From positions 1-44,659 of IMG/VR virus record IMGVR_UViG_3300009788_001696: DNA of 44,659 nucleotides; one strand, written 5' to 3'. The position numbers and the translations under genes were made by a program. Each line of letters begins with the position of its first letter. Positions within the stretch are counted from its first letter, which is position 1. Positions 2 through 44,659 of the stretch are shown here, piece after piece. The stretch is from a virus. Under the pieces are notes generated by a model. The model made no database searches, had not been told where the DNA came from, and was given only the letters and a program-made list of their open reading frames with translations.

Positions 2-283
2 ACCGCGGTCAAAGAATTGCTCGCGCGTCCCAATGATAGCGCGGTGGAGCTTTACGGCACGAAAGCGGCATCGCGGATCCAGCAAATCTTCAACCAAGCC
101 GTCACGACGATCGCGCTCAAGATCGCCGAGGAGCATTGCCGCACACCCGAGATCGAAAACGAGATCAAGCGGCTCCTCGTCGAGGCCGTCAATAAAGCCT
201 TCCACGCGGACGGCGCACAAGAGCGACTCGTCGAGCGGATGGCCGACGCGGTCCGCAAAGCGATCACCGGGGATCGCTATTGA
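2..283 (+). CDS. Hypothetical helical protein, 5'-truncated by the window edge
   Basis: The frame is open from the first bases of the window, so the true start probably lies upstream; an internal TTG at 17 would give 88 residues. The product is charged and predicted mostly helical, with no motif I recognise. Its TGA overlaps the ATG of the downstream ATPase by one base (TGATG), so the two are probably translationally coupled and in one operon. It may be the C-terminal part of a DNA-binding or partner protein of the ATPase, but that is only inference from position. Confidence 0.6.
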   Translation, partial: TAVKELLARPNDSAVELYGTKAASRIQQIFNQAVTTIALKIAEEHCRTPEIENEIKRLLVEAVNKAFHADGAQERLVERMADAVRKAITGDRY

Positions 284-1980
284 TGAAGATCGCAACCGGG
301 CTATCGCTCCCGCCGGAGGCCGTCACCGAAACATTCGGGCTCCTCGCCGCGCGGGGAGCGGGTAAGACCAACACCGCGCGCGTCATCGCCGAGGAGATGT
401 TCGCGGCCGGGCTTCGCTTCGTCGCCATCGACCCAGTCGGATCGTGGCCCGGTCTGCGGTCCTCGCGCGATGGCAAAAAGAGCGGCATCCCGATCCCGAT
501 CTTCGGCGGGAAGCATGGCGATGTCCCGCTCGAGCGCACCGGTGGCAAGCTCGTCGCGAGCCTCATCGTCGAACAACATTTGAGCGCCGTCGTTGATGTG
601 TCCACGTTCGAAAGCGAGGCCGCGCGAAAGCAATTCCTTCTCGACTTCGCAACCGAGCTCTATCGCCTCAACGAGGAGCCGTTGCATTTGTTTCTCGAAG
701 AGGCGGACGACTACATTCCACAAAAGCCAATGCGCGATGAGGCGCGGCTTGTGCGCGCGTGGTCAAACATTGTGCGCCGCGGTCGAGCTCGCGGCCTCGG
801 GATCACTCTGATCACGCAACGGAGCGCCGTCGTCGCCAAGGACGTGCTGACTCAAGTCCAGACGTTGATTGCCATGCGGACGACATCGCCGCAAGACCGC
901 AAGGCCGTCGAGGCTTGGGTCCAATACAACGACCAGAGCCGCGACATTCTCGAAAGCCTTTCGAGCCTCGAAGATGGCGAAGCCTGGATCTGGTCGCCTC
1001 AGTTTCTCAAGGTGACCAAGCGCGTCCGCTTCCGCCTTTCCAAAACGTTCGACTCGGGTGCGACTCCGACGGTTGGCAAGCGACGACGCCAGCGGACGAT
1101 CGCCGATGTCGACGTCACCGCGATCCGCGGCTTGATGAGCGCGACCATCGAGAAAGCCGAGGCCGAGGATCCGAAGTTGCTCCGGCGCAAGCTCGCCGAG
1201 CTCGAAAAGCAGAACAGGGCGTTACGCCACCCGTACCCAACGCCGGAGCCCGTGATTGAACGCGTCGAAGTGCCGATCCTCACCGACGAGGCGCGCCGCG
1301 AGATCATCGACCTCAAGCGATCGATCCTCCACATCGGCAACCGGATGACCGAGCTCACCGACAAGATCGGGGCGGCTCCGAACGCGCCGAGGGTTTTGCC
1401 CAAACCGGCCCGCGCGAGGAGCTCCAACGGTAAGCCCGAGGGAGCGGGGACGGTGCTCGCCAAGGCTCCGCCGGGCTCCCGCACCGCGAGTCGAGTTTTG
1501 CCCAGTGGGCCGGTCGATCGCGGCATGAAGAAAGCCGAGCGGAAGATCCTCACCGCTCTCGCTCAACATGGGACGCTGTCATTGACTCAAGCGGCCATGA
1601 TCGCCGGCTACCGGCCGACCTCTGGCGGCGTCCGTAACGCCGCGAGCGCCCTCCGCACCATCGGCTATGTCGAGGGCTCCAATGCATCGCTCGACGTAAC
1701 TGAGAGCGGCCTCGGGGCCCTCGGGCCCGTCGAGGAGCTCCCCACCGGCGCGGCCCTCGCCGATCGTTGGTATGGCCAACTGAAGAAAGCCGAGCGGGAG
1801 ATCCTCAAGGCCGTCATCGACGCCTATCCGGGCACCGTCTCACTCGCCGAGGCGGCCGAGATCGTTGGCTACCGTCCGACGTCGGGCGGTGTCCGCAATG
1901 CCGCGAGCAAGCTTCGAACCCTCGCGCTCATCCTCGGCGGAAACACCGCGATGCGCGCGGCTCAAAGGCTGATCTCATGA
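283..1980 (+). CDS. HerA/FtsK-like P-loop ATPase (DUF87-type) with duplicated C-terminal helical module
   Basis: A 565-residue protein with Walker A AARGAGKTN at residues 22-30, a hydrophobic Walker B strand ending in Glu-Glu (LHLFLEEAD, about 134-142) and a sensor-like ITQRS near 177. This arrangement matches HerA/FtsK-type motor ATPases, which move or remodel DNA as rings. Residues about 230-370 are a charged, coiled-coil-prone linker. The C-terminus carries two copies of a roughly 50-residue unit, each with KKAER, a helix-turn-helix-like segment and GYRPTSGGVRNAAS, probably DNA-binding. ATG 283 is preferred over the in-frame TTG at 280 because it makes the TGATG overlap with the upstream stop. 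No NurA-like nuclease is visible beside it. A role in phage DNA metabolism or host takeover is inference. Confidence 0.85.
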   Translation: MKIATGLSLPPEAVTETFGLLAARGAGKTNTARVIAEEMFAAGLRFVAIDPVGSWPGLRSSRDGKKSGIPIPIFGGKHGDVPLERTGGKLVASLIVEQHLSAVVDVSTFESEAARKQFLLDFATELYRLNEEPLHLFLEEADDYIPQKPMRDEARLVRAWSNIVRRGRARGLGITLITQRSAVVAKDVLTQVQTLIAMRTTSPQDRKAVEAWVQYNDQSRDILESLSSLEDGEAWIWSPQFLKVTKRVRFRLSKTFDSGATPTVGKRRRQRTIADVDVTAIRGLMSATIEKAEAEDPKLLRRKLAELEKQNRALRHPYPTPEPVIERVEVPILTDEARREIIDLKRSILHIGNRMTELTDKIGAAPNAPRVLPKPARARSSNGKPEGAGTVLAKAPPGSRTASRVLPSGPVDRGMKKAERKILTALAQHGTLSLTQAAMIAGYRPTSGGVRNAASALRTIGYVEGSNASLDVTESGLGALGPVEELPTGAALADRWYGQLKKAEREILKAVIDAYPGTVSLAEAAEIVGYRPTSGGVRNAASKLRTLALILGGNTAMRAAQRLIS

Positions 1981-13226: not shown

Positions 13227-14018
13227 TCATGCGTCGTCGATCTTTGCGTGACCGATGCGACGCGAACCGCAGTCCAGGCAAACTGCAACTTGGCCGTTGC
13301 CGTGCTTGCCTTGACGCAATTGTAGATTGTCGATGCGGTTGTCATCACGTTTGCCGTTGATGTGGTGAACTGTTTCGGAGCGCAGAAGTGGACGGCCCAG
13401 TTGCTTCGCCATCTTTAGGCGGTGTTCCATGACGTAGCCGTGAGCAGTGCGCATGGATGCGAACGGGCTATCGATAGCGACTGCCACCATCATGTATCCA
13501 GCAACATGGCGGACCCTTCCGCCTTTCCAAGACCTGTGACTAGGACCACCCATCCTTGGATATTTTGCGATGCCGTTGGCGTGTAGAAGCCGAGAAACGC
13601 GACCTTGCGAACTTGAAAGCGACGCTGCGATAACTTCTTGTGACTCTCCGGATTTGTATCGCTTCAAGATTTCCGCGGCATGCTCATCCGAGAATTCTTG
13701 GCAACGATTGCCGCGACCCTTGATGACACCACCAACTCTATGAACCGCATCGCGAACTGTCTGGATACTGCACTCATGCCGTTTCGCTAGAACCGTCAGT
13801 GACTTCGCTTCTTCGTATTCGGCCGCGAGAGATCTCGCTTGCGCATCATCGAAAAGCCGATAGCCGTCACGCCATCGCTGGATACCGCCAGAAAGATCGA
13901 CTCCCGCCCGCGTGAGCAATCGATATGCCTGTGTGTGCGAGACGCCAAGCTCACGCGCAACCGCTCGCCCCGTGCCGTGCTCTTCGTAGAGTTTGCGGGC
14001 TTTTTCTACATTGTTCAT
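13227..14018 (-). CDS. HNH homing endonuclease with N-terminal helix-turn-helix domains
   Basis: A 263-residue protein. Two or three helix-turn-helix-like units at the N-terminus (GTGRAVARELGVSHTQAYRL, SLTVLAKRHECSIQTVRDAV, SQEVIAASLSSSQGRVSRLL) precede a C-terminal HNH_3-type nuclease (YVMEHRLKMAKQLGRPLL, then ETVHHINGKRDDNRIDNLQL). The His-His pair and Asn residues of the ββα-metal fold are present, and a CLDCG near the C-terminus may be half of a zinc site. It is free-standing, inserted among fibre genes, and preceded by a long palindrome. It is a selfish element rather than a virion component. Confidence 0.9.
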   Translation of the reverse strand: MNNVEKARKLYEEHGTGRAVARELGVSHTQAYRLLTRAGVDLSGGIQRWRDGYRLFDDAQARSLAAEYEEAKSLTVLAKRHECSIQTVRDAVHRVGGVIKGRGNRCQEFSDEHAAEILKRYKSGESQEVIAASLSSSQGRVSRLLHANGIAKYPRMGGPSHRSWKGGRVRHVAGYMMVAVAIDSPFASMRTAHGYVMEHRLKMAKQLGRPLLRSETVHHINGKRDDNRIDNLQLRQGKHGNGQVAVCLDCGSRRIGHAKIDDA

Positions 14019-20462: not shown

Positions 20463-20906
20463 TCAGTCTTGGTTCAAGTCTCTACCGGTCGCGGTGAACA
20501 CGAATTGAAAGTCATCGTCACCGATCTCGATTTGGACGTCGATTTTTACGGTGTTGATCCTTGGGATCGTCGCCTCGACGCCGACGAAGGTTGCGAGATC
20601 GGTTTCCGTCATCCACGCGAGATCGCGGTTGGCCGCGTCCTCGATGCGCCGGAGGTTAGAAGGGATCGCGGGGATGGAGCGAAGTAGCGATTGGAACTCG
20701 CTCCGATAGTGCCTGACTTCCTCGGGCTCGGTCTTGTTTCCCCACCATTCGAGATCCTTGGTGGCGTCTCCGCCGGTGTCGCGCTCATTGCCTCCGAAAA
20801 GCGATAGATACGCGGCCCCAACCAAGCCATCGTCTAGCTCAGCTTGGCCGTTCGTATATGTGATCTCGCCGCCATCGTCTGTCTGAAACTGTCGGACGTC
20901 CGTCAC
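20463..20906 (-). CDS. Baseplate protein, Mu gp46-like
   Basis: A 147-residue protein. ELDDGLVGAAYLSLFGGNER followed by LEWWGNKTEPE is the signature of phage GP46 family proteins, and the C-terminus has the beta-strand pattern (TVKIDVQIEIGDD) of gp25/gpW lysozyme-like baseplate wedge proteins. Start GTG 20906 overlaps the stop of the GIY-YIG gene (GTGA). Its first residues, VTDV, repeat those of the GIY-YIG protein, consistent with insertion of the endonuclease at this start codon. Confidence 0.85.
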   Translation of the reverse strand: MTDVRQFQTDDGGEITYTNGQAELDDGLVGAAYLSLFGGNERDTGGDATKDLEWWGNKTEPEEVRHYRSEFQSLLRSIPAIPSNLRRIEDAANRDLAWMTETDLATFVGVEATIPRINTVKIDVQIEIGDDDFQFVFTATGRDLNQD

Positions 20907-21652
20907 TGATGCGCCCTCTCAAGATTCAAATGTTTCCAGGATTCTCGATTTACGATCCTTCGCACTTGGGTCCGACCAACTGCGAACCTTTTTGAAAGGC
21001 TGCTGATGGTGACTTGAGCGTTATGAAGAGCAATCATCTGGACCACATCGGAATCGGTCAACTTCGCTCGTCCATGCATGGAGCCGTGTGGCGCTCCAGA
21101 CTTCGCCTTGGTCGACGAAATCTTTCTTTTTGTTTTGTCGGAGTGCTTCTGACCCGTACGCAATTCGGCCAATCGTTGTTTGGTAGCCTCGGAGTGACGA
21201 CGGCCAATATGCGCAACCGCCATGCGTTTTTTGACAGCGTCGGAGTGAAATTTCCCTAACCGATGAGTATTGCCGATGGCCTTCTTGTTTCCGAGTTGTG
21301 CGTCCGACATCTTGGAACGTTGCTCTGATGTCGGACGCCAGCCCGTTGAACCGTTTCCGCCAGCCACCATATTTGTCAGGTCGACTCCAAGTGAACGTGC
21401 AAGCGCAATCCAAAAGCGTTCGCGTTCTGCGAGTTGTGCCTCATCGCAGTATTCAAGAATTCGGACAGAGAAACTTTCTCCTTTGTCGCTCAATTCTTGA
21501 ATCCACTTCGCTTTGTCGGTGTCGTCTTTTCGGTGGCGATGCGCCGCCATACGATCCATCGCGTTGCGCGTTTGGCCGATATATCTGATCCGGCCACAAG
21601 GACCTGGCTCGCAGAGCGCATATATGAAAAACATTGTCGCGACGTCTGTCAT
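20903..21652 (-). CDS. GIY-YIG homing endonuclease with NUMOD-like repeats
   Basis: A 249-residue protein. FFIYALCEPGPCGRIRYIGQTRN (residues about 8-30) is the GIY-YIG core, with the Arg and downstream Glu (AERERFW) expected of the nuclease. The middle has three NUMOD3-like repeats (KFHSDAVKKRMAVAHIG, RRHSEATKQRLAELRTG, QKHSDKTKRKISSTKAK), and the C-terminus has a helix-turn-helix (ISSLSKRFAVGRTQVRRIV). It is a free-standing, I-TevI/Seg-type selfish gene inserted between baseplate genes. It overlaps both neighbours by four bases. Confidence 0.92.
   Translation of the reverse strand: MTDVATMFFIYALCEPGPCGRIRYIGQTRNAMDRMAAHRHRKDDTDKAKWIQELSDKGESFSVRILEYCDEAQLAERERFWIALARSLGVDLTNMVAGGNGSTGWRPTSEQRSKMSDAQLGNKKAIGNTHRLGKFHSDAVKKRMAVAHIGRRHSEATKQRLAELRTGQKHSDKTKRKISSTKAKSGAPHGSMHGRAKLTDSDVVQMIALHNAQVTISSLSKRFAVGRTQVRRIVNRESWKHLNLERAHQ
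21641..21652 (-). repeat. 12-nt imperfect direct repeat bordering the GIY-YIG insertion
   Basis: On the minus strand, ATGACAGACGTC at 21652-21641 (start of the GIY-YIG gene) is repeated as GTGACGGACGTC at 20906-20895 (start of gp46). Ten of twelve bases are identical, and both copies are start codons followed by codons for T-D-V. It reads as an insertion footprint that restored the downstream start. Confidence 0.6.
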
Positions 21653-25713: not shown

Positions 25714-27885
25714 TCAGAGAGCTCCGCTCTGTTGGAGCTTCAACGATCCGGCGCCCTTTGGTTGCTTGGTGATCTGAGCTCGCCCGGATTGGTCGATGAT
25801 CGTCACCTCGCTCCGTTGGGTCTCGGTCGACTCGGTGATCGCGCGCGAGGTCACCTCGCCCGGTGTCACGACTTGTGGATCGCCACCTTGCGCGGCGATG
25901 GCCGATTGAGTGAGACCGCTGAGGAAGCCCTCGAAGGCCTGGAGGCGCGTATTCGATGCCGCGATGGCTGCGCCCTCGCGCGCGATCGTGTCGTCAAATT
26001 GCTGGGCTGACGCCGCGCTCATCTCCTGTTGGAGGTTCATCGCTTTTTCAAACTCGGCGTTGGCGCCAACCACGCCTTCTTGGCTTGCCAAAAGACTATC
26101 GAATGACGGCCCCAACTTTGCGTTCGCGGCTCCGATGTCGAATTGCTGGCCGAGCGTACCGGCTCCGGCGCCTGCACCGGCAACGGCTTGGACTCGGCCA
26201 ACAACCTCCTCGCCTTTCTTCCGTCCAACGCTCGTTTCGAGTTGTCGCTCACCTGCGCGCTCGCGCGCCTTGCGGTTTTGGAATTCGTCGATCGCTTCGA
26301 ACGGGCTGAAAGTGCCTTGCTCGAACATCTCCGAAATCGTGCCGGTGATGCCAAGGCCTTCTGTTTCGGCGGCGAGTTTGTTGAGCTGATCCCAGATTGC
26401 GATGAGAGACAACACAACCGCCGTGAGCGCTAGAACGCCGGCCACGACAACGCCGAGGCCGATGCCGGCCGCAACCTGAAAAGCGAACATCGCGATCTTT
26501 CCAGCGAAGAGCGCGGCGTTATACAGCCACACCGCCGCCGTCGCGAGCGCAACAAGGCCTTTCCAAATGAACAGCGCCACGGCCGCGGCCTTGATGGCGA
26601 TCGTCATCACAAGCCAAACCGCGACACCGGCGCCGATCGCCTTGAGGACAAGGACGATCCCGTCCATGTTCTCGCGTGTCTTTTCGAGGAAACTGACAAA
26701 CTCAGATTGGATCAGCTCGTCATTCTTTTCGATCCACTTCGTCATGCCTTGAATCATGGCGCGCAAGGGTCCGCTCTCGGTGTCGAATAGTTGGATCTTG
26801 ACGCTGTCCGCGGCGGCCTCGAGTTTCAACAAGTCGCCGGTGAGCGTGTCCATCCGGATGTCGGCCATTTTCTTGGCGGACCCGCCAGCCTTTTCGAGCT
26901 CCTTGGTGAGCCTCTCCAACTTGCCCGTCTCGAAGAGCTTCGACAAATTCGAGGCCGCCTTTTGACCTCGAAGGCCGACGAGCTCGGCGAGGAAAGCGAC
27001 TTGCTTCATATTGCCGCCGGACTTCTTGGCGCCCTTCGAGAGGTTGGCGAGGATCTCGTTGAAGGGGAGCGCGTTGCCGGCGGTGTCCTCGAATGCGATC
27101 CCGAGGTCCTTGAACTTTTTCCGCAACGACTTCGAAGGCGCGGCAAGCTTCGTCAACATCGTGTTCATCGCCGAGCCTGCAACGCTCGCGTCGAGGCCGA
27201 CATCTTGGAGCGACGCGACACCGGCGACGACGTCGGTGAGCGGAATGTTCAGTTGCCGCGCTGTCGACGCGACGTTTTTCATCGACTCGCCGAGCGTCCC
27301 GATCGTGCTGTTGGTGCGCGCCGACGCGAGAGCGAGGACGTCCGCGACGTTGCTGGCCTCGCTCGCTTCGAGGCCCATGCCCTTGAGGACGTTCGAGACA
27401 ACGTTGGAAACCTCGGCGAGCTCCAAGCCAGAGGCGGCCGCGGCATCGAGCACACCGGGGATCCCGCTCATGATCTCGTTCGTCTCGAAACCGGCGCGAG
27501 CCATGATCTCCATCCCCGCGGCGACTTGCGTTGCGGTGAATTTCGTGGTCGCGCCTAGCGACTTCGCTTGGTCCTCCAACGGTTTTATTTGGTCTCGCGT
27601 TTTCAGCGACACCGCGCCGACGTTGGTGATCGCTTGCTCGAAGCTCGCCCCGGTCCGCCCAATGTTCAACAATGCCGCGCCGGCCGCCGCTCCCATAGCC
27701 GCCGCCGCGATGCCGGCTTTTCTCAGCCCGGCACCGACGCGCGCAGACACGCGGCTCATACGACGAAGGCCCGCCTCCGCCTTACGCGTGAAGCGGGCCA
27801 CCCCTCGCGACATCTTCGCGATCGGTCGACTGAAACGATCTCGCGCCTTGAAGATGGCTTCCACGGAAAACCTACCCTTGGGCAA
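25714..27885 (-). CDS. Tape measure protein
   Basis: A 723-residue protein: basic N-terminus (VEAIFKARDRFSRPIAKMSR), a TP901-type core (FEQAITNVGAVSLKTRDQIK, ATTKFTATQVAAGMEIMARA), long helices and a hydrophobic zone at about 390-500 with several membrane-like segments (AVWLVMTIAIKAAAVALFIW, IGLGVVVAGVLALTAVVLSL). TTG 27885 follows AAAGGGA at good spacing; a GTG at 27864 (VEAIFKARDRF) is an alternative start. Tail length is set by this protein; 723 residues by the usual 1.5 angstrom per residue rule would give a tail of roughly 100 nm. Confidence 0.92.
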   Translation of the reverse strand: MPKGRFSVEAIFKARDRFSRPIAKMSRGVARFTRKAEAGLRRMSRVSARVGAGLRKAGIAAAAMGAAAGAALLNIGRTGASFEQAITNVGAVSLKTRDQIKPLEDQAKSLGATTKFTATQVAAGMEIMARAGFETNEIMSGIPGVLDAAAASGLELAEVSNVVSNVLKGMGLEASEASNVADVLALASARTNSTIGTLGESMKNVASTARQLNIPLTDVVAGVASLQDVGLDASVAGSAMNTMLTKLAAPSKSLRKKFKDLGIAFEDTAGNALPFNEILANLSKGAKKSGGNMKQVAFLAELVGLRGQKAASNLSKLFETGKLERLTKELEKAGGSAKKMADIRMDTLTGDLLKLEAAADSVKIQLFDTESGPLRAMIQGMTKWIEKNDELIQSEFVSFLEKTRENMDGIVLVLKAIGAGVAVWLVMTIAIKAAAVALFIWKGLVALATAAVWLYNAALFAGKIAMFAFQVAAGIGLGVVVAGVLALTAVVLSLIAIWDQLNKLAAETEGLGITGTISEMFEQGTFSPFEAIDEFQNRKARERAGERQLETSVGRKKGEEVVGRVQAVAGAGAGAGTLGQQFDIGAANAKLGPSFDSLLASQEGVVGANAEFEKAMNLQQEMSAASAQQFDDTIAREGAAIAASNTRLQAFEGFLSGLTQSAIAAQGGDPQVVTPGEVTSRAITESTETQRSEVTIIDQSGRAQITKQPKGAGSLKLQQSGAL

Positions 27886-37931: not shown

Positions 37932-40010
37932 TTACTTGTTCTCGTAAAACATCGGCCCACCCTCGGCGTTGCCCTCTTTGCAGAGATGCCAAAACTCGGG
38001 CCAATTGACGTTGTCCATTTCGAGCTGCCCCACGCAAACATTCCAAGCCAACATGTCGAGCGCGGCGGCGTTGTAGACGAGGAGATCCCAAAGCTCGTTT
38101 CGCGATCCCGATGGTCGGTGCCACTCGAATCCGATGCGTCGGCCGGTGGTCTTGTGAACCTTTGGACGCTTCGACTCGGCGGTGAGCTCCTTGAGCTGCT
38201 TATCGTCCGCGTCTCGAGGTGCGTTGAAGTGTCCGGTTGGTTGGCGATCGATGCCGCTCCAATTGCGCTTGAGCGCGCCGTGCCATCGTTCTTTGTAGAG
38301 GTCGACCGTGACGCTAAACGCGACGGTTCCCATCGGCGTCGTGAATTCTGAAAACTCTCGAAGCGTCGCGCCCTTCGGCGCCATCTCGCGACCTTTGATC
38401 GGGTAGACGTTGGACGCATATTCGTTGGCGAATTGGTACGCCTGATCCGCGCGATACCCTGAGTCAACGAGAACAACGGGGAGCGGATACCGCTTGCCGT
38501 CGTCGCCGTGATAGGCCGCTCCTTCGACGAGCTCGCGCAGTCGTCCCCATGTCCCGGCGTCCTCGAGGTTCTCGGTGTCCCCCTCGAAACGCCAATAGTC
38601 GATGAGGAAGCACGTCCGACCGTGGCACCATCCGAAAACGGCGACGGCGAGATTGTCTTTGTGAATGTCGACCGCGCCGGTGAGCAACATGATCGGCGCG
38701 CCGGTGTAGGCCTCGGCCAGCTTGTTCGGCACCTCGCCAAAGTGATAGTCGCGCCGGTGAGCCGACACCGACTCGAAGCGGACCTTTTCGCCGCGCACCT
38801 CGAAGGGTTCGCCGAGGATGTTGTTGTAGAAAGTCTGGAGGGCCGTGACGTCGATCGGTTCGTTCCGCTCTTCGTCCCAAGCCTGCAACCACTCTCGCAC
38901 GCAAGCCTCCCAGGTTTGCATTCCAACCGGGGAATAGAGCGCGTTGATGTGGTAGCTCCGGTTGTCGGGATGCGCCGGCACCGCGGTCGGCCGCCATTCG
39001 GCGCCATGGTCCGGCGATAACAAACGCATTTTGTCATCGTTGATGTGCGGGTGTCCGCACTCCTCGCACTTGTATCGAACCGAACCGGGGACGAGCTTGC
39101 CGCCCTTCATGTCCCACACGATGCCGGTGATCTCGCCGGTCTCTTTGTTGGTGCGCTTCCACCGCAACGTTTGCGAGTGCTCGCACCCGAGGCACTTGAC
39201 GAAGTAGAAACGTTGATCGCCGAGCATGAATTGCTCGTGGATCTTCGAGGCGCCCTTGATGCCCGGCGTCGAGCAGTCGAGGATCTTGCGCGACTCCTCG
39301 AAGCCCTTGGTACGCGCCTCGACGAGCTTGAGCGGGTCGCCGTCCTTGTTGGCCAGTGGCCAGCCGTCGATCTCGTCGCGAAGTAGGATTTGGATCGAAG
39401 CCGATCGGAGCTTGTTCGCGTTCTGAGCTCCGAGGGGGACGAGATAGCCGCCGCCCTCCCATTCGAGTTTTTTCTCAGTCCAACCGGTTTTGCGTCCGCG
39501 GTTGGCGTCCGACGCCTTGATGAGGTCGGCCAAACCAGAGTGGACGAGCATCGGCGTGATGTTCGCCTCCATGCGGAGCTTTGCGAGCTCGCCGTCGGCG
39601 GTGACCATCATCACCGGCGCCGTCTTGATGTGCGCGATGAAATAACCGATCGCGTTCTCGATGACGCCGACGGTGATCCCGATCTGGGCCGCCTTCATGA
39701 TCGCGATCAAACGGATCGGACTGTTGACGCTCAGGCAATCGAGGATCTCGCGAAGGTACGGCGCGACGTCGAACCGATAATAGCCCGGCATCGAGGTGAC
39801 GCTTGGCGGAAGGTAGCGCGACGCCTCGGCCCATTCGCTGGGCTTTACAACAACGAGCTCGGTCGTGAGCGCTTCGAATTGAAGCGCCAACCATTCGCGC
39901 TCCTCGGCCTCCCAATCGATCTCACCGTAGCGGTCGAAGTTTCGGATCTGGACGTCGTCGGTGTGCTCCTCAGTGGAGCTTGGGTCGCTTTCCGGTTCCG
40001 GCGTCGTCAT
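37932..40010 (-). CDS. Terminase large subunit (lambda gpA-type)
   Basis: ATG 40010 (MTTPEPESDPSS) gives 692 residues; an in-frame ATG at 40076 with AGGT upstream would add 22. Motor features are an unusual Walker A (IAIMKAAQIGITVGVIENAI) and a Walker B with ILLRDEIDGWP. A Cys4-type finger is formed by VKCLGCEHSQT and YKCEECGHPH. The nuclease half contains TGAVDIHKDNLAVAVFGW and VLVDSGYRADQAYQFA, matching the gpA family. It packages DNA into the prohead, so cos-type ends are likely by analogy. Confidence 0.92.
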   Translation of the reverse strand: MTTPEPESDPSSTEEHTDDVQIRNFDRYGEIDWEAEEREWLALQFEALTTELVVVKPSEWAEASRYLPPSVTSMPGYYRFDVAPYLREILDCLSVNSPIRLIAIMKAAQIGITVGVIENAIGYFIAHIKTAPVMMVTADGELAKLRMEANITPMLVHSGLADLIKASDANRGRKTGWTEKKLEWEGGGYLVPLGAQNANKLRSASIQILLRDEIDGWPLANKDGDPLKLVEARTKGFEESRKILDCSTPGIKGASKIHEQFMLGDQRFYFVKCLGCEHSQTLRWKRTNKETGEITGIVWDMKGGKLVPGSVRYKCEECGHPHINDDKMRLLSPDHGAEWRPTAVPAHPDNRSYHINALYSPVGMQTWEACVREWLQAWDEERNEPIDVTALQTFYNNILGEPFEVRGEKVRFESVSAHRRDYHFGEVPNKLAEAYTGAPIMLLTGAVDIHKDNLAVAVFGWCHGRTCFLIDYWRFEGDTENLEDAGTWGRLRELVEGAAYHGDDGKRYPLPVVLVDSGYRADQAYQFANEYASNVYPIKGREMAPKGATLREFSEFTTPMGTVAFSVTVDLYKERWHGALKRNWSGIDRQPTGHFNAPRDADDKQLKELTAESKRPKVHKTTGRRIGFEWHRPSGSRNELWDLLVYNAAALDMLAWNVCVGQLEMDNVNWPEFWHLCKEGNAEGGPMFYENK

Positions 40011-40470
40011 CGACAGCCGGGCCGACCTCTGGCTTGCCAGCTCGCCGAGCAATCTCGTCAAGGACCCTTGCGGCATCGTCGCGACCTAGAACGTCCTCAA
40101 CGCATTCGAGGAGCGCGTTGAGTTGATCCTTGATGCGGTCATCGTGGGTCGCTCCTTGGAGGGCTTTGGTTCCGAATTCGTTGCCGGCTTTGCGCGCGAC
40201 GTACCACGCCGAAGCGCGCCAATCTTTCTTGCCGGCTCGCGTGATGTTCCGGACTTGCTCGGTGAGGGACTCGCCCTCGGCCGCGACGACCTTGGCCGCG
40301 AATGACTTGAACGGCTCCTTGGCCTTGGGGAGCTCGCCGAGGCTCATCCACCGCTTGACCGTCCGCTCGTCGGCCCCGATGAGCGCGGCCGCGTGCTTCC
40401 GATAGTTGCCGTCCTTGATGGCCTCGATGAACGTCGAGACGTTTTCAGGGGTGAGCTTCGATTTCGCCAT
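39970..40470 (-). CDS. Terminase small subunit
   Basis: ATG 40470 gives 166 residues starting MAKSKLTPENVSTFIEAIKD. A helix-turn-helix (YRKHAAALIGADERTVKRWM) lies near the N-terminus, followed by a helical oligomerisation region and an acidic tail (VGPAVDDDAGTGK). A GTG at 40479 in frame is disfavoured because it lies directly after the -10 of the putative promoter. It is the first gene of the late operon and overlaps terL. Confidence 0.85.
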   Translation of the reverse strand: MAKSKLTPENVSTFIEAIKDGNYRKHAAALIGADERTVKRWMSLGELPKAKEPFKSFAAKVVAAEGESLTEQVRNITRAGKKDWRASAWYVARKAGNEFGTKALQGATHDDRIKDQLNALLECVEDVLGRDDAARVLDEIARRAGKPEVGPAVDDDAGTGKRPKLH

Positions 40471-40479
40471 CGTGCCCAC

Positions 40480-40507
40480 AGGATACTGAACAAGCGCGCC
40501 GCGTCAA
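40480..40507 (-). promoter_or_regulatory. Putative late-operon promoter, divergent to the early promoter
   Basis: On the minus strand, TTGACG (40507-40502) and TATCCT (40485-40480) are separated by 16 bases. The predicted start site would be only a few bases before the terS ATG at 40470, so the mRNA would be nearly leaderless. The -35 box directly abuts the conserved AAAATAGATCC element of the divergent promoter, so the two are likely to share regulation. This is sequence inference only. Confidence 0.5.
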
Positions 40508-40526
40508 AAATAGATCCGATTTGGGC

Positions 40527-40555
40527 TTGCACTTCGGAAAGCGGTTTCCTATACT
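40527..40555 (+). promoter_or_regulatory. Operator-containing promoter, copy 1
   Basis: TTGCAC (40527-40532), then a 17-base spacer ending in GGAAAGCGGTTTCC (40536-40549), then TATACT (40550-40555). The GGAAA/TTTCC arms form a short palindrome across the spacer, a good place for a repressor or activator. The repeat extends upstream to an AAAATAGATCCGATTTGG block (40507-40524) and an ACTGAACA box (40485-40492). It drives the 67-residue gene at 40589. Confidence 0.8.
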
Positions 40556-40588
40556 TCAGGAGTCAGCAGGAACCAAGGAGCCGAGACC

Positions 40589-40792
40589 ATGAACACCATC
40601 ACCAACATCATCCACGAAACCGTTGATTGCTTCGTTGCCGAGACCGAGGACGGCCGCATCCGCGTCGGCGCTCACGGCGCTGTTTTCACCGACTACCCCG
40701 CCGACCTCATCGACGTTGATGCTCTCGTGGCCTCCGACGACTTCGATGGCGATGCCGAGGAGCTCGCCTTGCACACCGAGGACCTCGCCTAA
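40589..40792 (+). CDS. Small acidic protein under operator-promoter copy 1
   Basis: A 67-residue protein (MNTITNIIHETVDCFVAETE...), very acidic with a DFDGDAEELALHTEDLA end. AAGGAG lies eight bases before the ATG, and the leader GTCAGCAGGAACCAAGGAG is closely similar to the leader of the next gene. The promoter is 30 bases upstream and a strong terminator follows, so it is a single-gene transcript. Its acidity could fit a DNA-mimic or antirestriction role, but no motif proves it. Confidence 0.65.
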   Translation: MNTITNIIHETVDCFVAETEDGRIRVGAHGAVFTDYPADLIDVDALVASDDFDGDAEELALHTEDLA

Positions 40793-40813
40793 GGCTTCTG
40801 GCCCGCCCGTCCC

Positions 40814-40850
40814 ACGGCCCCTGGCGAAAGCTCGGGGCCGTCGCCTTTTC
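40814..40850 (+). terminator. Rho-independent terminator
   Basis: Perfect 8-bp stem ACGGCCCC (40814-40821) with GGGGCCGT (40834-40841), loop with a GC-GAAA-GC core, then CGCCTTTTC. It ends the first small-gene transcript. The next copy of the ACTGAACA box starts directly after it. Confidence 0.8.
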
Positions 40851-40901
40851 TACTGAACAGAGGGGAGGGAGAAAAAAGATCGCCTCGGGTGCGTTTTATT
40901 G

Positions 40902-40930
40902 TTGACCATCGGAAAGCGGTTTCCTATAAC
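40902..40930 (+). promoter_or_regulatory. Operator-containing promoter, copy 2
   Basis: TTGACC (40902-40907), 17-base spacer with GGAAAGCGGTTTCC (40911-40924), TATAAC (40925-40930). The core 17-nt spacer is identical to copy 3 and differs by one base from copy 1. Upstream, an ACTGAACA box lies at 40852-40859, but the AAAATAGATCC block is missing here. It drives the 117-residue gene at 40967. Confidence 0.8.
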
Positions 40931-40966
40931 AAGGGGGTCAACAGGAACCACCAAGGAGACCGACCC

Positions 40967-41320
40967 ATGAGCTCATTCATCTGCGACGACCGCCACATCT
41001 CAGCCCTCGCCACCTTCGCCAGCGAGAACAACATTTGCGACCGCAACGAGGCCGAGGCGCTCGCCATCGAGCTCCACGCCGAGAACGTCCGAAGCGTGAA
41101 CCATCGCTACAGCGAGAGCGACGCCGACGCCTTCACCTTCGAGCGTGTCGCCACCGCGGGCGAGCCGGTCCGCATCCTCAAGGCCGTCCACTGCTACCAG
41201 TACCAGGCCTGTGAGCATGAGGGCTGGGCCGACAGCCACGCCGCCAAGGTGTGCGAGGCCATCCTCTCGGCGGCGTGTCGCCAGCTCAAGGGCTACAGCG
41301 ACGCGGCTTGGGGCTACTGA
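40967..41320 (+). CDS. Conserved small protein (117 aa) under promoter copy 2
   Basis: A 117-residue protein beginning MSSFICDDRHISALATFASE, with NVRSVNHRYSESDADAFTFE and KAVHCYQYQACEHEGWADSH, ending YSDAAWGY. I have seen this pattern (MSSF..DxHI, then NVRSVNxRY, FxF, KxxxCYxYQxCE) in hypothetical proteins of plasmids and phages, but know no function. AAGGAG is eight bases before the ATG. Its leader GTCAACAGGAACCACCAAGG resembles that of the preceding gene. Confidence 0.8.
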   Translation: MSSFICDDRHISALATFASENNICDRNEAEALAIELHAENVRSVNHRYSESDADAFTFERVATAGEPVRILKAVHCYQYQACEHEGWADSHAAKVCEAILSAACRQLKGYSDAAWGY

Positions 41321-41399
41321 GCCACGGCGAGAGGGGGGGGGCCACCGGGGCCCCTCCCACTGAACAGGCGAGGCCCTCGAAAATAGATCCGATTTGGCC

Positions 41400-41428
41400 T
41401 TGCGTATCGGAAAGCGGTTTCCTATAAC
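41400..41428 (+). promoter_or_regulatory. Operator-containing promoter, copy 3
   Basis: TTGCGT (41400-41405), 17-base spacer with GGAAAGCGGTTTCC (41409-41422), TATAAC (41423-41428). It is preceded by the AAAATAGATCCGATTTGG block (41380-41397) and the ACTGAACA box (41359-41366), so it matches copy 1 over about 70 bases. The ATG of the next gene is only 6 bases after the -10. Confidence 0.8.
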
Positions 41429-41434
41429 TAACTC

Positions 41435-41566
41435 ATGGCGAACGGGACTCGAAGGGCGATTCAAGCGGCGGCTCTCGTCGCGGCCCTCGTCGGAGTCCTC
41501 GCCGGAAACTCAAACCCATCCGGGCGCTTCGTCCGCGAGCTCAATCCCACGGAGATCAGCAAATGA
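41435..41566 (+). CDS. 43-residue hydrophobic peptide, leaderless start
   Basis: ATG 41435 to TGA 41566 encodes MANGTRRAIQAAALVAALVG followed by VLAGNSNPSGRFVRELNPTE and ISK. It has a basic N-terminus and a 17-residue Ala/Leu/Val segment that could be a membrane span or signal. The ATG lies at the predicted transcription start of promoter copy 3, so the mRNA would be leaderless. Its TGA overlaps the next ATG by four bases (ATGA), giving translational coupling. It is too short for routine calling and could be missed. Confidence 0.6.
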   Translation: MANGTRRAIQAAALVAALVGVLAGNSNPSGRFVRELNPTEISK

Positions 41567-41811
41567 CCGACCGACGCACCGACCTGAACGCCGCCCTTCG
41601 TTGGGTCCTCACCGGCATCGAGAACAGCGCCCTCACAAGCGGCTACCTCCGTTGGTCCGATGTCGATGGCTCATGGCACCAAACGCCGCACCGACCCGAG
41701 GCCGGCTACCGCGTGGACGCCGAAGGCATCGTTTATCGCATCATCGCCGAAGGCCGCGAGCGTCGCGTTGGCAAGGTCGACAAATTCCACGCATTCATCA
41801 TCGAGGACTGA
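41563..41811 (+). CDS. Hypothetical protein (82 aa)
   Basis: An 82-residue protein starting MTDRRTDLNAALRWVLTGIE at the ATGA overlap. It has SGYLRWSDVDGSWHQTPHRP, YRVDAEGIVYRIIAEGRERR and a C-terminal HAFIIED. It is a small mixed alpha/beta protein upstream of the methyltransferase with only four bases between. No family is recognised; an accessory to the methyltransferase operon is inferred. Confidence 0.7.
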   Translation: MTDRRTDLNAALRWVLTGIENSALTSGYLRWSDVDGSWHQTPHRPEAGYRVDAEGIVYRIIAEGRERRVGKVDKFHAFIIED

Positions 41812-41815
41812 GGCC

Positions 41816-42796
41816 ATGCGGATCGGTTCACTGTTCAGCGGGATCGGCGGCTTAGAGCTTGGCCTCGAATGGGCCGGGCTCGGTCGCACGGTGTGGCAAG
41901 TCGAATCCAACGCGTTTTGTAGAAGCATCCTGAGCAAACATTGGCCGGAGGTAAAACGCCATGAACAAATCGAAACAGTCGGAGCCGAGTGCCTCGAAAG
42001 AGTCGACCTCATCTGCGGAGGGTTTCCCTGCCAAGATATCAGCTCGGCGGGCAAGGGCGCTGGCCTCGACGGTGATCGAAGCGGCCTTTGGTTCGAAATG
42101 GCGCGCGTCATTCGCGAGCTTCGACCGCGCTTCGTCGTCATTGAAAATGTTGCAGCGCTCGTTATTCGAGGACTCGATCACGTCCTCAGTGACCTTGCCG
42201 CGGGCGGGTATGATGCGATCTGGCTCCCTTTACGAGCTGCCGACGTTGGAGCGCCCCATCGCCGCGAGCGGATCTTTATCGTTGCCTGGAGACTGGACGA
42301 CGCCCATGGCGGGCGACGCTGGGCGAGGACCGCGACGAACGCCGAAGGGGCCAGGTCGCGGGGGTCAACGGGATCTGGTGACGGATGCGATCGAATGGCC
42401 GACGCCTCTGGCAACCGAAACGAAGCGCAGCAACGATCGACGGAATCGAAAACAAGGGCGGTCACTCACACACACGGTGCGAACGATGTGGCCGACAGCG
42501 ACAGCCGGCGACGCGAGGGCTGGCGGCTCCCGCAACACACCGACGAGCAAAGCTCACGCGGGACTCAGTCTGACAGACGCGGTGACGACCGGGGAGTCAA
42601 CTGGCCGCCAGGACCCAACGGTGACTGGGACGCCTATGTCCGAGCGGGTGGTCCTGAACCCGTGGTTCGTCGAGGCACTCATGGGATTCCCAATCGGGCA
42701 CACCGACTGCGAGCCCTCGGAAACTCCGTCGTCCCGCAATGCGCCGAAGTGATCGGACACATCATCAAGCAACTTGAAAGCAGAGGACCTCAATGA
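41816..42796 (+). CDS. C5 cytosine DNA methyltransferase (Dcm family)
   Basis: A 326-residue enzyme starting MRIGSLFSGIGGLELGLEWA; longer starts lie inside the previous gene. All key motifs are present: I FSGIGG (7-12), IV GGFPCQ with catalytic Cys72, VI ENV (110-112), VIII APHRRERIFIVA (146-157) and X RLRALGNSVVPQ near 297-308. The region between VIII and IX (about 160-280), where the target-recognition domain should be, is hydrophilic and low in complexity (SRGSTGSGDGCDRMADASGN...). It would methylate DNA to evade host restriction or to mark phage DNA. The same DNA also encodes a second long ORF at 41961-42752. Confidence 0.92.
   Translation: MRIGSLFSGIGGLELGLEWAGLGRTVWQVESNAFCRSILSKHWPEVKRHEQIETVGAECLERVDLICGGFPCQDISSAGKGAGLDGDRSGLWFEMARVIRELRPRFVVIENVAALVIRGLDHVLSDLAAGGYDAIWLPLRAADVGAPHRRERIFIVAWRLDDAHGGRRWARTATNAEGARSRGSTGSGDGCDRMADASGNRNEAQQRSTESKTRAVTHTHGANDVADSDSRRREGWRLPQHTDEQSSRGTQSDRRGDDRGVNWPPGPNGDWDAYVRAGGPEPVVRRGTHGIPNRAHRLRALGNSVVPQCAEVIGHIIKQLESRGPQ
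41961..42752 (+). CDS. Overprinted gene nested in the methyltransferase, +1 frame
   Basis: A 263-codon ORF in the +1 frame relative to the methyltransferase. It has ATG 41961 and a perfect GGAGGT Shine-Dalgarno eight bases upstream, which itself lies inside the methyltransferase coding sequence. The protein has order: SSSLKMLQRSLFEDS, TLPRAGMMRSGSLYELPTLE, DWTTPMAGDAG, EWPTPLATETKRS, MWPTATAGDARAGG, LNPWFVEALMGFPIGHTD. These match a pattern I recall from phage proteins found with Dcm genes (LFEDS...LPRxGMMxxG.LYxxP, WPTPxAxD, NPxFVExLMGFPxGxTD). It should be taken as dual coding until tested. Function unknown. Confidence 0.6.
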   Translation: MNKSKQSEPSASKESTSSAEGFPAKISARRARALASTVIEAAFGSKWRASFASFDRASSSLKMLQRSLFEDSITSSVTLPRAGMMRSGSLYELPTLERPIAASGSLSLPGDWTTPMAGDAGRGPRRTPKGPGRGGQRDLVTDAIEWPTPLATETKRSNDRRNRKQGRSLTHTVRTMWPTATAGDARAGGSRNTPTSKAHAGLSLTDAVTTGESTGRQDPTVTGTPMSERVVLNPWFVEALMGFPIGHTDCEPSETPSSRNAPK

Positions 42797-43077
42797 AAAC
42801 TAAAACAGACGGCCGCACTGGCCGCACCATCGCCACCGACGGCCAAGCCCTCGGGCATGCGCTGAGGTGCTCGATCCCGCGCCTCAAGGCCGCGGCGGTC
42901 GCTCACGTTTGCAAGGTCTTGCGAAAGCACAAGGGCCGCACCATCCCCGCGGCCGACGAGCTTGGCATCACCTCGCGATCCCTCACGACTTGGATCGCGG
43001 ACTCGAGCGAGCTCGCCGCGGTCCGCGACAAGTTTGGCACTTGGGGCCGTGTGCCCGATCGGTTGGTGAAGTCATGA
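42793..43077 (+). CDS. Small HTH-like DNA-binding protein
   Basis: A 94-residue basic protein whose ATGA overlaps the methyltransferase stop. KVLRKHKGRTIPAADELGIT followed by SRSLTTWIADS reads as a Fis/Xre-type helix-turn-helix near residues 40-70. It begins MKTKTDGRTGRTIATDGQAL. It is a possible regulator of the early operon or of the operators upstream, though nothing direct links it to them. It ends in an ATGA overlap with the next gene. Confidence 0.65.
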   Translation: MKTKTDGRTGRTIATDGQALGHALRCSIPRLKAAAVAHVCKVLRKHKGRTIPAADELGITSRSLTTWIADSSELAAVRDKFGTWGRVPDRLVKS

Positions 43078-43673
43078 ACGACACATCGAAACAGCTTCGA
43101 GCCGTAGAGGTCGAGCACCTCTTCGATACGGGCTCCAACGAGAATTGCCCCAAGGCGACACTCGATGCTTCGTCTAATCCGGTCTGCGATTGTGGCGCAG
43201 ACGGAAAGAACGAGATCATTCAACGTGCGGCGGATTCACTAGAGGCATTGGCCGAGGTGCTCGCTCCGTTTGGTGCCGCTGTCCACCCTAACGGCAAGAG
43301 TGTCGCCGTGATCGATTACTGCTGGCCTTACTACGCCGCGAGCAAAGCCTTGATAAAGTTTGGTAGCGGCGAGGCGATCACCTTCACCGGTTTCAACGGT
43401 GTCGGCGACGCAACGCAATATGTGTGGGAGGGACTTGTCGAGTACGACGAAGGGCTGCACCGCATGGTTTTCCGCGCGAAGCATACGAAGGCGATCGAAC
43501 CGATCCAGGGGCCGCTGTCGATGGTTAGCGAGTCGTCGGCGGAGGTAGACGTTGTGTGTCAGTTTGCCCCGATGAACTTTGACGGACAGCGGTGTCGCGT
43601 CACAATCGAGGTACTCGACGAGGAGTCCGACGAGGACGATGGCGGACCGCCCGATTCCGGCACCGGTTGGTAA
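43074..43673 (+). CDS. Hypothetical acidic protein (199 aa)
   Basis: A 199-residue protein starting at ATG 43074 in the ATGA overlap. NPVCDCGADGK near residues 38-48 may be a metal or zinc-binding knuckle; the middle (EALAEVLAPFGAAVHPNGKS, VIDYCWPYYAASKALIKFGS) is mixed alpha/beta, and the C-terminus is very acidic (LDEESDEDDGGPPDSGTGW). No family is recognised. It is the last gene of the plus-strand cluster. Confidence 0.65.
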   Translation: MNDTSKQLRAVEVEHLFDTGSNENCPKATLDASSNPVCDCGADGKNEIIQRAADSLEALAEVLAPFGAAVHPNGKSVAVIDYCWPYYAASKALIKFGSGEAITFTGFNGVGDATQYVWEGLVEYDEGLHRMVFRAKHTKAIEPIQGPLSMVSESSAEVDVVCQFAPMNFDGQRCRVTIEVLDEESDEDDGGPPDSGTGW

Positions 43674-43713: not shown

Positions 43714-43906
43714 TGGCATTTCAAAACTTGAAATGGTTGTGGTTGGTAGGGAACGATGACGGCCGCGGCCGCCGCGTGTGACCTTTCGGCCACGTTCCCG
43801 GCATGGTTCACCTCCGATGCTGTTCGCAACCTCGACGGCTCTAGCTATACGCGCCGTCTCGGTCGGTGGTCTTGTGCGCGCGCGATTGACCGAGGGATCG
43901 TGGGGA
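43714..43906. other. Convergent intergenic region with an 8-bp inverted repeat
   Basis: A perfect inverted repeat CATTTCAA-AAC-TTGAAATG spans 43717-43735. A plus-strand ATG ORF at 43756-43968 (MTAAAAACDLSATF...) crosses the end of the convergent gene and has no strong ribosome-binding site; I do not call it. Near 43890-43915 AGGGAT and ATCCCT could form a hairpin that ends the minus-strand gene. Confidence 0.4.
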
Positions 43907-44575
43907 TCATCCCTTGCGGAGGATGCGCGCCGCGTTCGCTTTCATCGGTCGAAGCTGTGACTCGATGAGCTCGCGTACGATGGCCTCCGCGCGCTCGAGT
44001 GACTCGCCGGCTTTCGCCGCGGCGTAGACGCGCCGGCTAATTGTCCGCGGTGAATCGGTGACGAGCCGGCGTAGTCCCGAATCGAGCCATCCGAAAACGT
44101 GTTGCTTGACGAGCTCGCGCGAGATCAACTTGCCTTGGAGCTTGTCGGACGCGAGCCGCGACGATCGGACGTCCTCGATCTTCTTGGCCGCTTCGAGCCA
44201 GTCCTTGACCGTGCGCTCCGTTCCGAACCGGTCGAGGAGCTCGCGCAAGGTAAGGTCGAGATAGTCGTTGATGTCGAAGGCATTCGAGCGGAGCTCGGTC
44301 GGTTCCGCGGTATCACTTCGAGGAGGACCACCGGGTTTCTTCTTGGCGCGGGCCTTGGCTTTCGCCGGTTTGGCCGGATCCATCTGAGCGCGGGCGGGTC
44401 GGCGCTTGTGGCCTCGCGCGTATTTCTTGGCGGCCGGGTGGTCGATGTCGATGCGGTCGCGGACCTTCGCAGCCGATAGGACGTTCCGGCATGCCTTGGT
44501 GATTGCCGCCGGTGACACGCCGCACGTCGCGGCAAATTGCGACCGGCTTTCGAGTCGCTTGGTTTGCTTCGGCAC
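43907..44575 (-). CDS. DNA-binding protein resembling a Nu1-type terminase small subunit
   Basis: A 222-residue basic protein starting at GTG 44575 (MPKQTKRLESRSQFAATCGV). SRSQFAATCGVSPAAITKAC is a helix-turn-helix, and IDIDHPAAKKYARGHKRRPA gives a basic arm. The C-terminal half (NDYLDLTLRELLDRFGTERT, LISRELVKQHVFGWLDSGLR, SLERAEAIVRELIESQLRPM) is helical. HPAAKKYA followed by ISRELV..VF is seen in Nu1/DUF1441-like packaging proteins. Because terS already lies before terL, it could be a regulator, a second packaging factor or a relic. Confidence 0.55.
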   Translation of the reverse strand: MPKQTKRLESRSQFAATCGVSPAAITKACRNVLSAAKVRDRIDIDHPAAKKYARGHKRRPARAQMDPAKPAKAKARAKKKPGGPPRSDTAEPTELRSNAFDINDYLDLTLRELLDRFGTERTVKDWLEAAKKIEDVRSSRLASDKLQGKLISRELVKQHVFGWLDSGLRRLVTDSPRTISRRVYAAAKAGESLERAEAIVRELIESQLRPMKANAARILRKG

Positions 44576-44659
44576 CGTCCTCTAAAACGTCGAGCCCTCC
44601 AGGTTAAAAACGATCCGGACTTTTGAAATTGTCCAAGAAGGGCCGTCGCGAATCTGAAC
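44576..44659 (-). promoter_or_regulatory. Short leader of the last minus-strand gene
   Basis: On the minus strand GAGG lies three bases before GTG 44575. Further upstream, GGAC and GTCC form a small inverted repeat around AATTTCAAAA (near 44617-44634). I could not place a convincing -35/-10 pair, and the window ends here. Confidence 0.3.

Follow-up and report, generated by a model that had tools for sequence, protein, structure and literature searches.

A promoter cassette between two small-terminase genes

The window, that is, the whole 44,659-base stretch of DNA analysed here, is the record of a tailed-phage viral contig of about 62-64% GC, whose minus strand carries P2/Mu-like contractile tail, portal, protease, capsid and large terminase genes. 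The left end of the record falls inside an ORF, and the genome is therefore incomplete. The right end is apparently a physical terminus: a cos-like end at 44659 lies 84 bp upstream of the small-terminase gene terS1 (43907-44575), and six relatives' contigs from different metagenomes (L009, L012, L013, L020, L023 and L025, compared with 44600-44659) all start with GTT at the equivalent point, about 90-115 bp ahead of their small-terminase gene; three relatives read through it. Judged from these contig ends, a conserved cos-like terminus is common to the phage group, and the phage is of the cos type.

Between terS1 and TerL lies an extra block, consisting of TerS2 and a divergent promoter cassette, which is missing from most relatives. 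Two different small-terminase-like genes are present in this one genome; most relatives have only terS1, directly beside TerL. TerS2 (39970-40470, minus strand; phrog_4102) is divergent from the first promoter of the cassette, which is convergent and lies between the two small-terminase genes, with 67-aa and 117-aa genes followed by 43-aa, 82-aa, cytosine methyltransferase, 94-aa helix-turn-helix (HTH) and 199-aa genes.

These genes can be drawn as three putative transcript units on the plus strand. Unit 1 would consist of an acidic 67-aa ORF without a confident family (40589-40792), with the RBS AAGGAG ahead of it and a candidate terminator hairpin behind it at 40814-40850 (ACGGCCCC/GGGGCCGU, then the U-rich tail CGCCUUUUCU), whose z of -1.35 is modest and which is absent from the terminator-scan list. 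The 117-aa ORF of unit 2 (40967-41320) has no family match and no homologues in viral contigs, and a strong hairpin without a U-tract (41332-41359) lies 3' of it. Unit 3 begins with a 43-aa ORF with a hydrophobic N-terminus (41435-41566), which is ATGA-coupled to an 82-aa ORF (41563-41811), and continues with the cytosine-5 DNA methyltransferase (41816-42796; 326 aa, phrog_363, E 1e-79), the 94-aa protein (42793-43077), which has a weak Fis-type HTH match and is the sole DNA-binding candidate within the regulated operon, and the 199-aa ORF that ends the cassette (43074-43673). Several genes of this unit have overlapping stop and start codons, making a translationally coupled operon. Only 6 nt separate the end of the third promoter's -10 from the ATG at 41435, with the predicted start falling on the ATG itself, so that the mRNA of unit 3 would be leaderless.

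A second plus-strand ORF (41961-42752) lies wholly inside the methyltransferase gene, in the +1 frame, and matches another phage family, phrog_1008 (E 2e-32); both overlapping frames are kept in the relative L014, at 45% (methyltransferase frame) and 33% (second frame) identity, and the two are probably an overprinted gene pair. An inverted repeat, CATTTCAA-AAC-TTGAAATG, is found at about 43716-43736, intergenic between the cassette and terS1.

An invariant palindrome within three promoter spacers

Searching the window, we found the 20-mer TCGGAAAGCGGTTTCCTATA exactly at 40534, 40909 and 41407, all on the plus strand, and a window-wide count identified it as the sole 20-mer present three times. 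The sequence-only reading had described these copies and suggested looking for more in the remaining genome; the window holds no site beyond the three at up to three mismatches, with 0 in 100 shuffles. The copies are 375 and 498 bp apart, and each sits in a promoter of the form TTGnnn-N17-TATAmy, with the 17-base spacing and the palindrome placed as had been described. Promoter 1 (40527-40555) reads TTGCAC-TTCGGAAAGCGGTTTCC-TATACT, a consensus geometry with the -35 at 40527, the -10 at 40550 and the operator GGAAAGCGGTTTCC at 40536-40549; promoter 2 (40902-40930) reads TTGACC-ATCGGAAAGCGGTTTCC-TATAAC (-35 at 40902, -10 at 40925, operator at 40911-40924); and promoter 3 (41400-41428) reads TTGCGT-ATCGGAAAGCGGTTTCC-TATAAC (-35 at 41400, -10 at 41423, operator at 41409-41422). 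The operator takes up the 3' portion of the spacer, directly next to the -10, and the shared element as a whole runs out of the spacer into the first four -10 bases, a minor correction to the earlier description. With its arms GGAAA/TTTCC, the 14-mer is complementary in 6/7 base pairs, the imperfect pair being G-G; an equally good palindrome occurs in 1.1% of the 17-mers of the window. A MerR-type spacer operator, which needs a dyad within a lengthened spacer of 19-20 bp, was rejected on the 17-bp spacers of all copies.

The way in which the copies differ is informative. Between copies 1 and 3, identity extends upstream (25/30, and 90% over 50 nt), whereas copy 2 agrees with both in 20/20 bases of the core and in only 11/30 just upstream, which indicates that the spacer itself is constrained; copies 1 and 2 resemble each other in their leaders. 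Within the promoters, the -35 hexamers vary at their three final positions and the -10 hexamers at their two final ones, while the spacer is invariant except for its first base. Promoter spacers are read weakly by RNA polymerase and are normally free to vary, and an invariant spacer beside varying hexamers is, on sequence grounds, the pattern expected for a protein-binding site.

Further elements shared by the promoters, also pointed out earlier, were recovered as described. The ACTGAACA box lies upstream of all three on the plus strand (40485-40492, 40852-40859 and 41359-41366), at 65, 73 and 64 nt from the respective -10, and occurs once more on the minus strand at 27246, an unrelated site; its first copy overlaps a weak minus-strand promoter match facing TerS2 (TTGACG-16-TATCCT, 40507-40480). 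The element AAAATAGATCCGATTTGG is common to copies 1 and 3, being found in the window only at 40507-40524 and 41380-41397, both on the plus strand.

Taken together, the identity confined to the core in copy 2, the geometry repeated three times, the ORF after each promoter and the hairpins between units make a regulon with a shared operator at three promoters very likely. The sequence-only reading had spoken of a regulon of three small transcripts, and "small" holds for units 1 and 2 but not for unit 3, a longer methyltransferase operon.

The same architecture marks LacI-family genes in Clostridia

The operator has a form known from the LacI/GalR literature. In a set of 1303 LacI-family factors, the palindrome is even for 1251, a CG stands at its centre for 1173, and autoregulation applies to 72% (PMC4052901); GGAAAGCGGTTTCC is likewise an even-length, 14-bp palindrome with a CG at its centre (GGAAAG-CG-GTTTCC, 6/7 pairs). 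We scanned 85,000 bacterial genomes, one per species, with the pattern TTGNNNNNNGGAAANCGNTTTCCTATA (TTG-N6-GGAAANCGNTTTCC-TATA), and identified 12 loci, against a chance expectation of about two by our estimate under uniform base composition; the scan demanded TATA, and other arrangements in high-GC hosts would escape it. In 12/12 loci the first downstream ORF, lying 54-198 nt beyond the point where the match begins, encodes a LacI-family regulator (PF00356 at E 4e-18 to 1e-21, plus a ligand-binding domain), and at 2/12 loci (L034 and L039) the promoter spacer contains exactly GGAAAGCGGTTTCC. Because the pattern was built with the central CG, this association tells what such sites are in bacteria and is no proof of the binder in the phage. 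A strict consensus version gave 0 matches in 398 genomes of the Fusibacter phylum.

Four of the genomes that gave the 12 LacI-family loci were examined for further operators: each has a single copy or a tandem pair beside the regulator gene, and one of them has one additional site. Being essentially confined to the regulator gene in these four, the operator is therefore an autoregulatory operator of the regulator. These Clostridia promoters (L028-L039, for example in Anoxynatronum and Fusibacter) resemble those of the phage in the TTG-N6-GGAAANCGNTTTCC-TATA arrangement, in spacing and in the operator abutting the -10. They differ in having one site or a tandem pair, placed ahead of the gene for the regulator itself, at low GC, whereas the phage has three dispersed sites, high GC and no regulator gene in the window. 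Since all 12 loci are from Clostridia with 39-49% GC, unlike the phage, we treat them as an analogy and not as a guide to the host. A characterised operator of similar kind is that of PtxS, a Pseudomonas LacI-family protein, which acts as a repressor from its site TGAAACCGGTTTCA near the -10 (PMC5902321). Both operators are 14-bp even palindromes with a central CG near the -10; those of PtxS, TGAAACCGGTTTCA, serve metabolic operons, whereas GGAAAGCGGTTTCC serves phage genes.

The sequence-only reading had named no regulator from the window. Our search for a LacI-family gene in the window found none at E up to 10 (in a record whose left end is incomplete), and the operator's form points to a LacI/GalR-type protein, to which we give an even chance.

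Operators in relatives and in other phages

Comparison with relatives had been proposed as a check, and the nearest syntenic ones do carry a promoter at the equivalent place, but with a different spacer, and do not help in deciding. L014 and L016 keep TerS2 and have a divergent promoter ahead of small ORFs, leading in L014 to a methyltransferase; these promoters read TTGACC-N17-TAGTGT (L014) and TTGACC-N17-TAGGTT (L016), and the operator palindrome was not found in either spacer, so that the operator is not conserved across the group. A search based on TerS2 returned as relatives only these two and an A/T-rich locus (L040) without such a promoter. Ahead of the RBS, the divergent leaders of L014 (1240-1290) and L016 (430-480) both contain a GTCGC-loop-GCGAC hairpin, whose loop sequence differs between the two.

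Among viral contigs generally, the NCGN-centred architecture was not found, and a loose N4 version gave 26 matches, about chance level by our estimate. Good promoters among these (L047, L054, L059/L064 and L061/L066) have GGAAA-N4-TTTCC with A/T centres in equivalent geometry. None of their records contains a LacI gene, so that LacI is not needed for similar arms to arise in a phage. An exact 19-mer match in L004, the only one in viral contigs, falls within coding sequence in an unrelated phage of 44% GC and was taken as chance; a 33-mer search of plasmids and phages gave nothing useful.

Alternative explanations

An ordinary phage-encoded repressor, for example of the XRE/CI type, could bind the operator from the missing part of the genome, its LacI likeness being convergent. 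We regard this as a real but minority possibility. The record's left end lies inside an ORF, none of the window proteins scanned could be recognised as a replication protein, an integrase or a repressor, and other phages with identical geometry and GGAAA-N4-TTTCC, such as L054, have XRE-like proteins nearby. Phage immunity typically involves identical operators at scattered positions, and here three exact copies stand at phage promoters, the multi-operator arrangement of such a repressor; in phiC31, with its conserved inverted repeats, and in mycobacteriophages L1/L5, one repressor likewise acts on dispersed identical operators at promoters. In both of these systems, however, the repressor is phage-encoded, the mycobacteriophage sites are asymmetric, unlike the palindrome seen here, and the phiC31 operators are longer repeats. 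Against a phage repressor, the palindromes of the other phages all have A/T-rich centres and none NCGN, and the NCGN version was found in the genome scan only at LacI-family genes. A second protein that might act on all three promoters is the 94-aa HTH protein encoded in unit 3, autoregulating in the manner of restriction-modification controller proteins. It is encoded within the regulated methyltransferase operon, has a weak HTH_8 match (E 0.021) and has a partial homologue annotated as HTH; we nevertheless consider it improbable, as it has no XRE/C-protein match, no PHROG match and no relatives in viral contigs, and its predicted structure, of low confidence (pLDDT 52), is uninformative. A C-protein restriction-modification system as such, defined by an XRE-type C protein beside a methyltransferase with C-boxes, was rejected, the protein showing only the weak HTH_8 match.

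Two further readings dispense with a common regulator. Recent duplication of a promoter segment would account for the long identity of copies 1 and 3 and for the likeness of the leaders of copies 1 and 2, but not for copy 2, where the core, including the normally free spacer, is intact on a diverged flank; we judge it very improbable. Scarcely credible is the proposal that the repeats are packaging sites (cosB/R-type) for the adjacent small terminase: they do lie upstream of TerS2, and three repeats resemble the R-site arrangement of lambda, but the cos-like end is elsewhere, upstream of terS1, each repeat falls exactly in a promoter spacer heading an ORF, and the intervals between copies are wide.

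A model for joint repression of the cassette

We chart the following model. Three sigma-70 promoters would drive a non-structural cassette of small proteins, a cytosine methyltransferase and an HTH protein, each with the common operator between its -35 and -10. One dimeric repressor bound there would block RNA polymerase at all three promoters, and the cassette would then switch as one unit. The operator would be of LacI/GalR type (an even palindrome, GGAAA-NCGN-TTTCC, with central CG), and the protein bound to it would most likely be a LacI-family repressor. As none is encoded in the window, the simplest candidate would be a regulator that belongs to the host itself and responds to a metabolite. 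We consider a single LacI/GalR-type, probably host-encoded repressor of all three promoters the best explanation as a whole, though it is evenly balanced between being right and wrong. That the regulator is both LacI-type and host-encoded is a more doubtful proposition. Phages themselves can carry LacI-type proteins, phrog_11145 being a match to a LacI-family protein at 1e-84, and "host" is therefore an extra step beyond "LacI-type".

Control of phage promoters usually lies with phage repressors; among host regulators, LexA and CRP are the known exceptions. Phage T1 offers a precedent: its pir, dam and recE promoters are under repression by cAMP-CRP (PMC6737242), a regulator of host metabolism acting on several phage promoters, among them one for a DNA methylase, much as proposed here; the T1 case concerns CRP and was measured, whereas for the present phage a LacI-type protein is inferred. 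We tentatively suggest that an early methyltransferase cassette may be placed under a host LacI-family sugar repressor through its three operator copies, such that host carbon state would gate phage genes without a phage repressor, a reading we think unlikely as it stands. If true, a LacI-family operator copied into phage promoters would link host sugar metabolism directly to phage gene expression, and the central-CG palindrome in the spacer would serve as a simple genomic signature in other phages.

Elsewhere in the window, a HerA-like ATPase gene (280-1980, plus strand) has a C-terminal winged-helix stretch that resembles the HrcA DNA-binding domain, and HNH and homing-endonuclease-like genes (13227-14018 and 20903-21652, minus strand) are inserted among the tail genes.
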